Shown: positions 22,965-25,588 of the stretch, piece after piece
How positions within the stretch are numbered: position 1 is the first letter of the stretch
How the letters are laid out: each line of letters opens with the position of its first letter
Assembly: GCA_017521285.1 (NCBI GenBank)
Contig: JAFXDG010000032.1
Coordinates: forward strand, 1 to 39,794
Length of the DNA: 39,794 nt
Direction: 5' to 3'
Source of the DNA: Bacteroidaceae bacterium
GTDB taxonomy: Bacteria > Bacteroidota > Bacteroidia > Bacteroidales > Bacteroidaceae
The notes under the pieces: generated by a model
What the model saw: the letters and a program-made list of their open reading frames with translations, nothing else
Database searches by the model: none
What the model was told of the DNA's origin: nothing
Made by a program: the position numbers and the translations under genes

Positions 22965-22988
22965 CCAAAAATAAGAATATCATACGAC

Positions 22989-23432
22989 ATGGAGAAGAAG
23001 GACATACGATGGATACAGCGGTTCAGCAACTTCCGCAAAGCGTTGGTCAAGTTGAACCAAGCCGTTGGCATCATTACCAATCAGACAGAGAGTGTAAAGG
23101 AAGTGGACGAACTGCTGAAGGAAGGGCTTATCCAACGCTTTGAATACACCCACGAGCTGGCTTGGAAGGTGATGAAAGACTATGCCGAATATCAAGGATA
23201 TACCGATGTGCGCGGTTCAAGGGATGCCCTCCGTCAAGCCTTGCAAATGGGAATCATCAATGATGCCGCCTGGATGGACTCCATCGAAGACCGCAATCTG
23301 ACGTCGCACAACTACGACGAAGAGGTGGCAGAAGAGGTGTACGAAGCCATCGTGCACAAGTATCATCCGCTCTTCATCCGCTTTGAAGCCACCATGTCGA
23401 AGTTGGCAGGCAACGGACCCACATTATTCTAA
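22989..23432 (+). CDS. HI0074-type nucleotidyltransferase substrate-binding (HEPN) protein
   Basis: A 147-residue helical protein of the HI0074 family (nucleotidyltransferase substrate-binding, HEPN-like). Characteristic stretches are RFEYTHELAWKVMKDY near residue 55 and DRNLTSHNYDEEVAEE near 105. It pairs with the small nucleotidyltransferase that starts 5 bp after its stop. Such pairs form heterocomplexes and are regarded as relatives of HEPN/MNT toxin-antitoxin systems, although the biological role of this subfamily is not settled. The frame stays open upstream through the repeat array into mrdA, but the promoter position argues for the ATG at 22989. Confidence 0.85.
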   Translation: MEKKDIRWIQRFSNFRKALVKLNQAVGIITNQTESVKEVDELLKEGLIQRFEYTHELAWKVMKDYAEYQGYTDVRGSRDALRQALQMGIINDAAWMDSIEDRNLTSHNYDEEVAEEVYEAIVHKYHPLFIRFEATMSKLAGNGPTLF

Positions 23433-23436
23433 TCCC

Positions 23437-23739
23437 ATGCCATACGGACTACAAGAATCTGAACTGCAAAAACTGCACGAGTTGTTCCGCGCCAATGAGA
23501 ACATCCGGCAGGTCATCCTCTACGGCTCGCGTGCCAAGGGGAACTACAAGCCGTTTTCCGACGTGGACATCACACTGACGGGCGAACACCTTACGCGTAC
23601 CGACATCAACCGACTGCAAGCCGCCCTGGCCGAATCGTCCCTCCCCTACCAATTCGACATCTCCCTGTTCGCCTCGCTCAAGAGCGACGAACTGATTGAC
23701 CATATCCGCCGCAGGGGGATTGTGATATATCAGAAGTAA
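23437..23739 (+). CDS. HI0073-type minimal nucleotidyltransferase
   Basis: A 100-residue nucleotidyltransferase of the MNT type. The GSx10DxD signature appears as GSRAKGNYKPFSDVD. The order is HEPN first, nucleotidyltransferase second, the opposite of the mntA/hepT pair at 9833-10493. The upstream extension of the frame into the HI0074 gene is rejected: the ATG at 23437 sits 4 bp after that gene's stop and gives a normal N-terminus. The likely target is its partner (inference). Confidence 0.87.
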   Translation: MPYGLQESELQKLHELFRANENIRQVILYGSRAKGNYKPFSDVDITLTGEHLTRTDINRLQAALAESSLPYQFDISLFASLKSDELIDHIRRRGIVIYQK

Positions 23740-23811: not shown

Positions 23812-23871
23812 TTTGCAAACAATTTGCAAACTCAAACTTTGCTCTTTTCCTATGAAAAAGGGCTATCTTTG
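23812..23871 (+). promoter_or_regulatory. Promoter and phased TTGCAA operator of the membrane HTH regulator gene
   Basis: Two TTGCAA palindromes lie at 23813-23818 and 23824-23829, exactly 11 bp apart. The 18-bp block around them is the reverse complement of the block upstream of the next gene (24960-24977). A promoter follows: TTTG 23838-23841 and TATCTTTG 23864-23871, with a slightly long 22-bp spacer. The operator ends 8 bp before the -33 box, a position typical of an activator. Confidence 0.7.
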
Positions 23872-23875
23872 CCAC

Positions 23876-24958
23876 ATGACGAATAAAAGCTATATGTTGT
23901 TGGCGGCTCTTGTCTGTGTCATATTGGCGGGATGCAGCCGAAAATCCGAACCGGACAAGTACAGTCTGAGTGGCGTGTGGATAATGACCCATGCGGAATA
24001 TCCTGTTCCTGAATTATCCGAAGACTTTCCCGATGCTGATGGGAAGACACTTTGCCGGATATACGAAGGCGATAGTGTTTTCTACGAGTGTTGGATAAGG
24101 ACGATGAAGCCCGGCCAACCGCAGAATGTTATGACTGCATCGGATGTCATAATCGTCCCCAAAAGTAAGTGTGTCTGCACCCTGATACAGAAGGACGGTG
24201 CCGGCAATCCGTTGTACCTTGAGGATGGTTCCGTCCGGCCTGTCAGATTTCTCAGCAACACATCTATGACAATTCAGAAAGTCGGCATTGTATTCTCCTG
24301 GACATTGGCCAAAGAGATGAAACAAGAACGTATCGCGGAAATCAAGGAAATTATCGCCAACAACTTGAGTAGCGCCGGCGAAATGCGCCAGTTTGTATTG
24401 CCCACCACTGAGCGCCAACTGGAGGCTGCCAACAGCCAATTGAAGACCACAGCCCATACGCTCGCGTACATTATTATTATATTGGTGCTTGTCGTGCTGC
24501 TCATTGTGTATGTGGCCATCAATGTTTCTCGCAAGAAACGGCGTGTCGAACAACAGTTGCGCCAAATGAGTGAAGAGCGTGAACTGCGCCCACAACCCGT
24601 GCGTCAGGCAATGGCTGAGGTGGAAGAGGATTTCCTTCATTCAGAGTTTTATTTGTCGCTGCGCCGACGTATTGCAGCCGGTGAAATGCTGAGAGAAGAA
24701 GATTGGAAAGAGATGGAACAACGGATGAAGTCCGTATGGCCTGCTTTCAGCAATCGGTTGTTCGACCTTTGCCACTTGTCGGAACTGGAGTATCGCGTCT
24801 GTCTGCTCATCAAATTGCGCGTATCGCCGTCGGAGATGGCGGCATTGTTGAGCAAAGATACAAGTACCATCAGCACCGTGCGTAGCCGTCTTTACCAGAA
24901 AGTGTTCCAACGCAAGGGCAGTTCCAAGGCTTGGGACAGCTTTATTCTCTCAATGTGA
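23876..24958 (+). CDS. Membrane-anchored HTH transcriptional regulator with extracytoplasmic sensor
   Basis: About 360 residues. N-terminal signal with a lipobox-like LAGC, then an extracytoplasmic domain starting LSGVWIM that resembles the small exported protein encoded next. A transmembrane helix spans about 197-218, then a basic coiled coil and a C-terminal helix-turn-helix. The latter (LSELEYRVCLLIKLRVSPSE, then TSTISTVRSRLYQKVF) is the LuxR/sigma-4-like domain of Bacteroidetes membrane regulators. The topology puts the HTH in the cytoplasm. The start is uncertain: the -7 box ends 5 bp before the ATG at 23876, so 23894 is possible. It probably regulates itself and the next gene through the shared TTGCAA sites (inference). 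Confidence 0.82.
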   Translation: MTNKSYMLLAALVCVILAGCSRKSEPDKYSLSGVWIMTHAEYPVPELSEDFPDADGKTLCRIYEGDSVFYECWIRTMKPGQPQNVMTASDVIIVPKSKCVCTLIQKDGAGNPLYLEDGSVRPVRFLSNTSMTIQKVGIVFSWTLAKEMKQERIAEIKEIIANNLSSAGEMRQFVLPTTERQLEAANSQLKTTAHTLAYIIIILVLVVLLIVYVAINVSRKKRRVEQQLRQMSEERELRPQPVRQAMAEVEEDFLHSEFYLSLRRRIAAGEMLREEDWKEMEQRMKSVWPAFSNRLFDLCHLSELEYRVCLLIKLRVSPSEMAALLSKDTSTISTVRSRLYQKVFQRKGSSKAWDSFILSM

Positions 24959-24959
24959 C

Positions 24960-25041
24960 TTTGCAAATTGTTTGCAATTGAAAATGCAAAGTAAATGCAA
25001 AATAAAAAGCTTGGTGCAGTGGACTGACGGCCTTACCTTTG
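24960..25041 (+). promoter_or_regulatory. Promoter with four helically phased TTGCAA/ATGCAA boxes
   Basis: Boxes TTGCAA 24961, TTGCAA 24972, ATGCAA 24984 and ATGCAA 24995 are spaced 11, 12 and 11 bp, all on one face of the helix. The promoter follows: -33-like TTGG 25011-25014, 19 bp, TACCTTTG 25034-25041. The leader to the ATG is about 40 nt. The first two boxes form the reverse complement of the operator at 23812-23829. This looks like an activator array ending 10 bp before the -33 box. Confidence 0.72.
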
Positions 25042-25084
25042 CACCGACAAAATCAATTTATTAACTTTTTAAACTGTAAGTGAT

Positions 25085-25588
25085 ATGAAAAAATTATTGG
25101 TGATTGTAGTAATGGCAATGGCTTGCATCAGCAGCCTCACGGCACAGACAACTGACAAGAGACTTCTTGGCGTATGGGTAATGGAGTCCATGCAATTTGA
25201 TGGCGAAGAGAAGATTCTTTGTGGCAGTAAAGAAACGCCCTATACCCAGTTCAAGTTCTATGGGGCTGATGGTGAGTATGCCTGTGCAGAGATTGTCCGT
25301 CAGGAAAATGGGGAATTTGTTGTCATTCCTCACGAGTACGGTACATACACCTACAAGAATGGTGTCTATTCTGAAATGGGGCGTCCTGCAGTTGCCAAGG
25401 AAGACATGGTACTGGTCGACAAAGACACTTTCAAAGGCCGTTGGGCAAATCGCAACGATGTGTGGAAGAAGAAAACCAACCTGTCCAAAGAGGCGATAGA
25501 CTACATTATCACTCTCTGTAAAATGGCGAAGCAGAAACCATCGGCAGAAGTTCAAAAGTCCATTGAGCAAAGCATGTTCAGCCGCTAA
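25085..25588 (+). CDS. Small exported lipocalin-like protein
   Basis: A 167-residue exported protein with signal peptide MKKLLVIVVMAMACISSLTA and mature start around QTTDK. The N-terminal LLGVWVMESMQF resembles the lipocalin-like GxW signature. Alternating strands follow (YTQFKFYGADGEYACAEI, YGTYTYKNGVYSE) and then a helical C-terminus. The GVWxM motif is also at the start of the sensor domain of the upstream regulator, so the two may bind the same ligand or each other. It is monocistronic, with its own promoter and a strong terminator. The family may be one of the Bacteroidetes lipocalin-like DUFs; I cannot assign it with certainty. Confidence 0.75.
   Translation: MKKLLVIVVMAMACISSLTAQTTDKRLLGVWVMESMQFDGEEKILCGSKETPYTQFKFYGADGEYACAEIVRQENGEFVVIPHEYGTYTYKNGVYSEMGRPAVAKEDMVLVDKDTFKGRWANRNDVWKKKTNLSKEAIDYIITLCKMAKQKPSAEVQKSIEQSMFSR

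Follow-up and report, generated by a model that had tools for sequence, protein, structure and literature searches.

Why would the gene for a predicted membrane regulator stand beside a gene for an exported relative of its own sensor domain, with the same tandem boxes in front of both? The locus that raises this question lies in a stretch of 39,794 nucleotides (the window; contig JAFXDG010000032.1, positions 1 to 39,794 of the forward strand) from the Bacteroidaceae bacterium assembly GCA_017521285.1, a genome of 3.38 Mb in 141 contigs that is 86% complete. An earlier note had proposed that a one-component transmembrane activator controls itself and a secreted relative of its sensor, possibly a ligand scavenger giving feedback. 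Our computational results lead us to read the locus as a self-contained membrane-to-DNA switch that has the exported sensor twin as its partner or feedback element, a reading to which we assign a probability of roughly 70%. It is carried by the homology of sensor and exported protein, the predicted architecture, the conservation and geometry of the operator and the co-occurrence of the two genes, all of which sequence comparison demonstrates.

The regulator (P0001) is predicted to consist of an N-terminal helix, a beta domain, a long helix with one transmembrane (TM) segment and a C-terminal helical domain. Structure comparison assigns a lipocalin-like fold to both the sensor domain and the exported protein (P0002), and a NarL/LuxR fold to the DNA-binding domain. 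It is important to note that two Foldseek searches returned lipocalin matches that were weak or of low coverage only, and that VIA-align was a second look at these same matches. An extracytoplasmic domain followed by one TM helix and a helix-turn-helix (HTH) domain, together with an exported beta protein, had been described in the earlier note and agrees with the predicted structures; of its label for the HTH, 'LuxR/sigma-4-like', we keep only the LuxR part, LuxR and NarL proteins being what the structure comparison returned. Pfam GerE was not among the matches listed, at E<=1 for 4 regulators and at E<=0.01 for 34, and domain searches gave no kinase match in the regulator family. As predicted, the TM helix and the DNA-binding domain lie in one chain that has no kinase match, which is how a one-component transmembrane regulator is built.

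Profile comparison makes the sensor and the exported protein homologous (hhalign 1.3e-21 and 1e-9, with 8 of the 121 regulators omitted for want of a clear GxW motif). A hidden Markov model (HMM) made from exported proteins alone matches regulators down to 3.9e-18, and P0002 matches the paralog P0005 at 5e-10. The link came via relatives, since direct BLASTP of P0001 against P0002 gave nothing significant (E 0.23). Unrelated extracytoplasmic folds had been named beforehand as a finding that would speak against the proposal; the two domains are homologous and have the same predicted fold. Searches of Pfam, NCBIfam and the sequences of solved structures found no family covering P0001 or P0002. 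A spindle-protein match (1.4e-4) across the end of the sensor and the TM region of the regulator was taken as chance. A lipobox-like motif precedes the sensor although the TM helix comes later, and 55 of 81 regulators that have an exported partner carry a crude version of this motif, as do 12 of 29 that lack one; the regulator is possibly a lipid-anchored transmembrane protein.

Promoters of Bacteroidota follow a -33/-7 consensus. The boxes listed in the earlier note were all found at their places in the window (TTGCAA at 23813, 23824, 24961 and 24972; ATGCAA at 24984 and 24995), with the same spacings, 11 bp before the regulator and 11/12/11 bp before the exported gene. Over 18 bp each two-box block is the exact reverse complement of the other, and the gap between the end of the array and the -33 box, given as 8-10 bp, measures 8 bp to TTTG (23838) and 10 bp to TTGG (25011). 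The pair TTGCAA-N5,6-TTGCAA occurs 2 times in the window (shuffle mean 0.04; 0 of 100 shuffles reach 2). Single TTGCAA words are only mildly enriched, with 31 copies vs 20.8 +/- 4.7 (2 of 100 shuffles reach 31); the signal is the spacing and position of the boxes, not the word itself. The full element TGCAA-N6-TGCAA-N33,34-TANNTTTG has 2 matches in the whole genome, both at the promoters of the regulator and the exported gene, and the reversed pattern has 0. The looser pair WTGCAA-N5,6-WTGCAA, which lacks the -7 box, is found elsewhere in the genome too (17 among the matches listed, on both strands; 2 for the reversed control). Since the strict element marks no promoters in its own genome other than these two, what the circuit mainly produces is probably the exported protein.

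Is this arrangement a property of one locus or of a family? The genus search covered 15 genomes and matched regulator relatives in 4. G008 carries an ortholog at 62% identity together with an exported neighbour of its own, relatives at 35-36% identity are present in G004 and, as a paralog, in the window's own genome, and in G013 the match covers the C-terminal part of the regulator only. With a profile from the first four regulator proteins, matches came from 162 of 399 sampled Bacteroidaceae genomes, about 100 matches being full-length; loci were taken around full-length matches among those listed, and 106 regulators scored above 150 bits. From a scan of named genomes with an alignment as query, 80 of 294 relatives were kept, mostly metagenome-assembled genomes (MAGs) named Bacteroidaceae, Prevotellaceae, Prevotella or Paraprevotella, and many of ruminant origin according to their record titles; the same scan with P0001 alone as query found no relative. 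The pair is also present in Prevotella sp. P3-122 (L199, 2941-4008 and 4171-4758), apparently an isolate rather than a MAG. Since an order-wide sample at 1e-30 had regulator matches in only 4 of 295 genomes, the family seems, by these searches, to be mainly one of Bacteroidaceae. All sets pooled gave 187 regulators, and redundancy filters were applied before the operator and partner counts.

The operator was tested without reference to any word, as a 9-bp direct repeat (at least 8 of 9 positions identical) at a given lag in the 240-bp region after the regulator. A lag-11 repeat follows 57 of 79 non-redundant regulators (72%; shuffles 1.8%), and other lags from 5 to 40 reach at most 11.4%, except for 20% at each of 22 and 33. 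In the second, previously unused set, from the named-genome scan, lag 11 was found in 30 of 40 non-redundant regions, the other tested lags giving 20% at 22, 22.5% at 33 and at most 15% elsewhere. The lag-11 repeat is present in 9.6% of 415 control regions after other genes of the same loci and in 31% of 78 regions before regulators. If distances are counted between the box G and the T of TAnnTTTG, the boxes stand at 37/38 and 48/49, and a distal pair commonly at ~70 or 79-80 and 90-91 (43 of 79 regions evaluable); in the regulator promoter of the ortholog they stand at 37/48 before the -7 element. Conservation of the boxes in relatives had been set beforehand as one test of the proposal, and they are conserved, as lag-11 repeats and in their fixed distance to the -7 element.

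Both proximal boxes are canonical in 71 of the 119 non-redundant regions downstream and in 62 of the 130 upstream, vs 14 of 449 regions before other genes, and 9 of these 14 control matches are genes just downstream of a regulator of the same family. The box consensus is WTGC[A/C/G]AAC, in which TG is favoured by the search and the other positions are free; half-site positions that the search left free are still conserved (C 0.98, A 1.00). The full element is present in 34 of 38 genomes and the reversed control in 0, figures that speak for specificity and give no independent test, as the pattern was derived from such loci. Of the 38, 37 were classed as pair-holding (in G109 and G123 the exported gene is 1.7 kb away), and G093 was undecided because its contig ends.

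Do these boxes belong to the regulator? Similar elements do stand before some genes that do not immediately follow a member of the family (5 of the 14 control matches and 7 of 8 stretches read by eye), as would be expected if another factor bound the boxes and the gene pair stood beside them by coincidence. However, the element tracks the regulator family over the non-redundant loci (71/119), even where the target gene is of another family. In a few loci word variants also go with HTH subgroups, the RAPxSVSS subgroup with TTGCRAGG-like boxes, which is suggestive only. We consider such a coincidence highly improbable.

The place of the boxes also bears on the sign of regulation. As they sit, constant to ~1 base, just upstream of a -33 element that is often weak, their position argues for a regulator that activates through contact with RNA polymerase. 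Autoregulation would also fit a repressor of both genes that is relieved by the signal, and single box-like words are found inside the promoter in a few relatives. But the box pairs leave -33 and -7 uncovered, and a constant place just upstream of an often weak -33 (TTGG) is activator-like, so that we regard repression as very unlikely. With the -7 element of the regulator promoter so near the start codon (Table 1), the mRNA would be nearly leaderless; the ortholog (L006/L012) is arranged alike.

What, then, is the exported protein for? An exported partner is encoded within ~400 bp of 85 of 121 non-redundant regulators, while 31 are without one and 5 are undecided. After relabelling, 89 regulators are with and 26 without a partner. 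More specifically, those relabelled as partnered were L069 and L174, whose exported genes lie 1.7 and 2.3 kb downstream, L077, where the exported open reading frame (ORF) is overlong at its start and so fell outside the distance window, and L138 (exported gene upstream), whereas L180 at 2053 was left out as not of the regulator family and L070 is not among the 121. Counting L070, three loci have the exported gene 1.7-2.3 kb from the regulator, and in L077 another exported copy follows 1.8 kb downstream.

Most regulators with an exported partner have a diverged sensor and look autoregulated. Canonical boxes precede the regulator itself in 58 of 87 cases with a partner vs 0 of 25 without (56/83 vs 2/30 before relabelling). 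Among the partner-less regulators, 25 of 26 are still recognised by the HMM of the exported type (E<=1e-3), compared with 21 of 89 partnered ones (27/31 and 19/85 before relabelling). Across 78 pairs the sensor has a median identity of 0.36, compared with 0.56 in the exported protein and 0.57 in the HTH. Ten proteins encoded downstream of partner-less regulators (seven by the next gene, three by the second) comprise five of thioredoxin/redoxin type, one each of TPR, Porph_ging-like and S41 peptidase type, and two without a clear family. The partner-less paralog in the window's own genome (contig C110; L010, 7092-8159) is upstream of a gene for a 626-aa protein. The corresponding protein of L011 contains a thioredoxin/redoxin-like domain, and box pairs of the words TTGCAAAC and TTGTAAAC lie there at 91/80 and 48/37. 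In L127, L128 and L137 a gene for a 923-aa protein is flanked by two regulators of the family, with TTGCGAGG/TTGCGAAGC-type boxes.

It is in loci with an exported twin that most sensors no longer carry the shared signature, and for this reason we favour a partner or feedback role over that of a simple scavenger, as far as sequence comparison can indicate. From the earlier proposal we retain the one-component transmembrane regulator with conserved sites in front of both its own gene and the gene of the exported sensor relative; the ligand scavenger is possible and is not favoured, because partnered sensors have mostly drifted from the signature that nearly all partner-less ones keep. Following this drift, sensor and exported protein need not bind the same ligand. 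This scavenger reading amounts to sense-and-sequester, in which the exported protein is plain output. It would be induced, would bind a hydrophobic compound outside the cytoplasm (or a protease, as potempins do), and would share the ligand of the sensor without ever touching the sensor. A sensor for the same ligand should have kept the shared signature, which 21 of 89 partnered regulators do. Moreover, the regulon may be larger than the strict element suggests, given an incomplete genome and a pattern that misses variant boxes. We hold plain output to be unlikely, though the most serious of the alternatives. A tree built from the regulators without their sensor part shows just 3 changes of the partner label, so that partner-linked sensor drift and autoregulation may be a single evolutionary event and not many independent cases.

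From this evidence we infer binding, activation, ligand binding, partner contact and the sign of feedback in the favoured switch with its exported partner, which could work as follows. The regulator would lie in the inner membrane, with its lipocalin-like domain outside and its C-terminal NarL/LuxR-type HTH inside. Upon a signal the HTH domains would bind the tandem 11-bp repeats on one helix face, just upstream of -33, and the bound regulator would bring RNA polymerase to two promoters, its own and the next gene's. This gene would supply the exported protein, which shares its ancestry with the sensor. In the most likely version, ancestral ligand binding stays with the exported protein, which partners the diverged sensor, closes a feedback loop and would also be the circuit's main product.

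Table 1. Features of the regulator-exported protein locus in the window
Feature	Position	Strand	Remark
Regulator operator, two TTGCAA boxes 11 bp apart	23813..23829	+	box G 49 and 38 bp before -7
-33 TTTG, regulator promoter	23838..23841	+	read off sequence; fits Bacteroidota -33/-7 consensus
-7 element TATCTTTG, regulator promoter	23864..23871	+	ends 4 nt before ATG
Predicted membrane regulator P0001, 360 aa	23876..24958	+	predicted structure mean pLDDT 90.9, pTM 0.56
N-terminal signal helix, residues 1-20, lipobox-like ILAGC	23876..23935	+	predicted helix 2-19 (low confidence); lipobox by eye
Extracytoplasmic lipocalin-like sensor domain (predicted), ~residues 33-144	23972..24307	+	
Single putative TM helix, ~residues 196-215	24461..24520	+	inside predicted helix 178-237; hydrophobicity by eye
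C-terminal DNA-binding domain (predicted), NarL/LuxR-type HTH, ~residues 290-360	24743..24955	+	
Exported-gene operator, distal box pair	24961..24977	+	box G 71 and 60 bp before -7
Exported-gene operator, proximal pair ATGCAA/ATGCAA	24984..25000	+	box G 48 and 37 bp before -7
Degenerate -33 TTGG, exported-gene promoter	25011..25014	+	read off sequence; TTGG/TTG here in many relatives
-7 element TACCTTTG, exported-gene promoter	25034..25041	+	
Exported lipocalin-like protein P0002 (predicted), 167 aa	25085..25588	+	homologous to sensor domain

The gap between the two genes is 126 bp and contains the operator and promoter of the exported gene; read-through transcription across it is possible. 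Directly upstream of the regulator, at 22980-23739, is a nucleotidyltransferase and substrate-binding pair (PF18765/PF01909 and PF08780), which we take to be an MntA/HepT-like arrangement.

Does the same operator serve other regulators? Eight stretches were read by eye, seven with elements away from pairs and one (L249) downstream of a partner-less regulator. They precede three thioredoxin-like genes, one TonB-receptor-like and one ECF-sigma-like gene and one TPR-TM-HTH regulator, and two have no close ORF. The TPR-TM-HTH regulator, identified by eye (L250, 2524-4065), has the same promoter element with TGCAACGC words. TPR relatives of the BT3442 type show lag 11 in 8 of 30 downstream regions vs 1-4 of 30 at other tested lags, a weak result, and no upstream lag-11 signal (3 of 30), with a near-canonical place before -7 in 4. 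As elements precede other kinds of genes, and given this weak result for TPR relatives, the sequences suggest that the operator grammar is wider than the family of lipocalin-sensor regulators. Tentatively, and with the odds somewhat against it, 11-bp tandem repeats before -33 might be a common operator grammar of a Bacteroidota superfamily of membrane NarL/LuxR-type regulators with lipocalin and TPR sensors, whose lipocalin branch duplicated its sensor into an exported twin with ligand binding and feedback.

We found neither the regulator family nor the operator described in the open PMC literature, as covered by titles and the starts of abstracts. An unnamed regulator family that is common in gut and rumen thereby gains a predicted fold and a candidate binding site, together with a promoter geometry and target genes, which makes its regulons predictable from sequence. 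The pair offers a test case for whether a sensor and its soluble twin share or divide ligand sensing, and a counterpart to VtrA/VtrC with a different DNA-binding domain. If the wider, tentative reading above is true, an exported sensor twin that takes over ligand binding and feeds back would be a signalling design that we did not find described.

Known proteins resemble parts of the system. Bacteroides lipocalin-like proteins (4qrl BACUNI_01346, 5byp, 4gzv, 4iab, 4i95) rank with the top structural matches, for the sensor and for the exported protein alike. Pfam Lipocalin_4 (PF13648) matches 5 of 41 exported proteins weakly (best E 6.7e-5) and P0002 not at all, and one of the 41 has a weak match to DUF4488. 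Weak DUF6377 matches around the TM region in 2 of 34 members recall DUF6377-like proteins of Bacteroidota. With the family of BT3442 (NF053779), which is called a TPR protein (PMC2954219), the regulators share a related C-terminal HTH region (P0001 residues 271-343, E 7.7e-6; 11 of 34 members), but have a lipocalin-like N-terminal part instead of TPR repeats and score 24.9 against a cut-off of 940 bits. Transmembrane transcription regulators as treated in PMC10269533 likewise combine a DNA-binding domain and a TM helix in one chain; about 72% of those in Bacteroides are, according to that survey, hybrids with kinase and receiver domains, whereas the regulators here have no kinase match. The word 'LuxR' does not occur in its main text.

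Closest in layout are the co-component systems VtrA/VtrC and ToxR/ToxS, in which, in the parts of PMC9214523 used here, a transmembrane transcription factor is adjacent to an extracytoplasmic partner. An obligate heterodimer in the periplasm is a further mark of such systems; for the Bacteroidaceae pair this contact is putative. The likeness extends to the adjacent exported partner, present for 85 of 121 regulators, and to its predicted lipocalin-like fold. The differences are several. The HTH here is of NarL/LuxR type and C-terminal, whereas that of VtrA is N-terminal and those systems were found by CadC-like HTHs (PMC9214523); the host is of the Bacteroidaceae, and enteric bacteria are the subject of that account. 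The partner gene has its own operator-bearing promoter in a 126-bp gap, while VtrA/VtrC form an overlapping operon (PMC9214523). Unlike VtrA/VtrC, the regulator here has its own lipocalin-like domain homologous to the partner. By this comparison the regulator-exported pair would resemble the co-component systems in layout without being a member of them.
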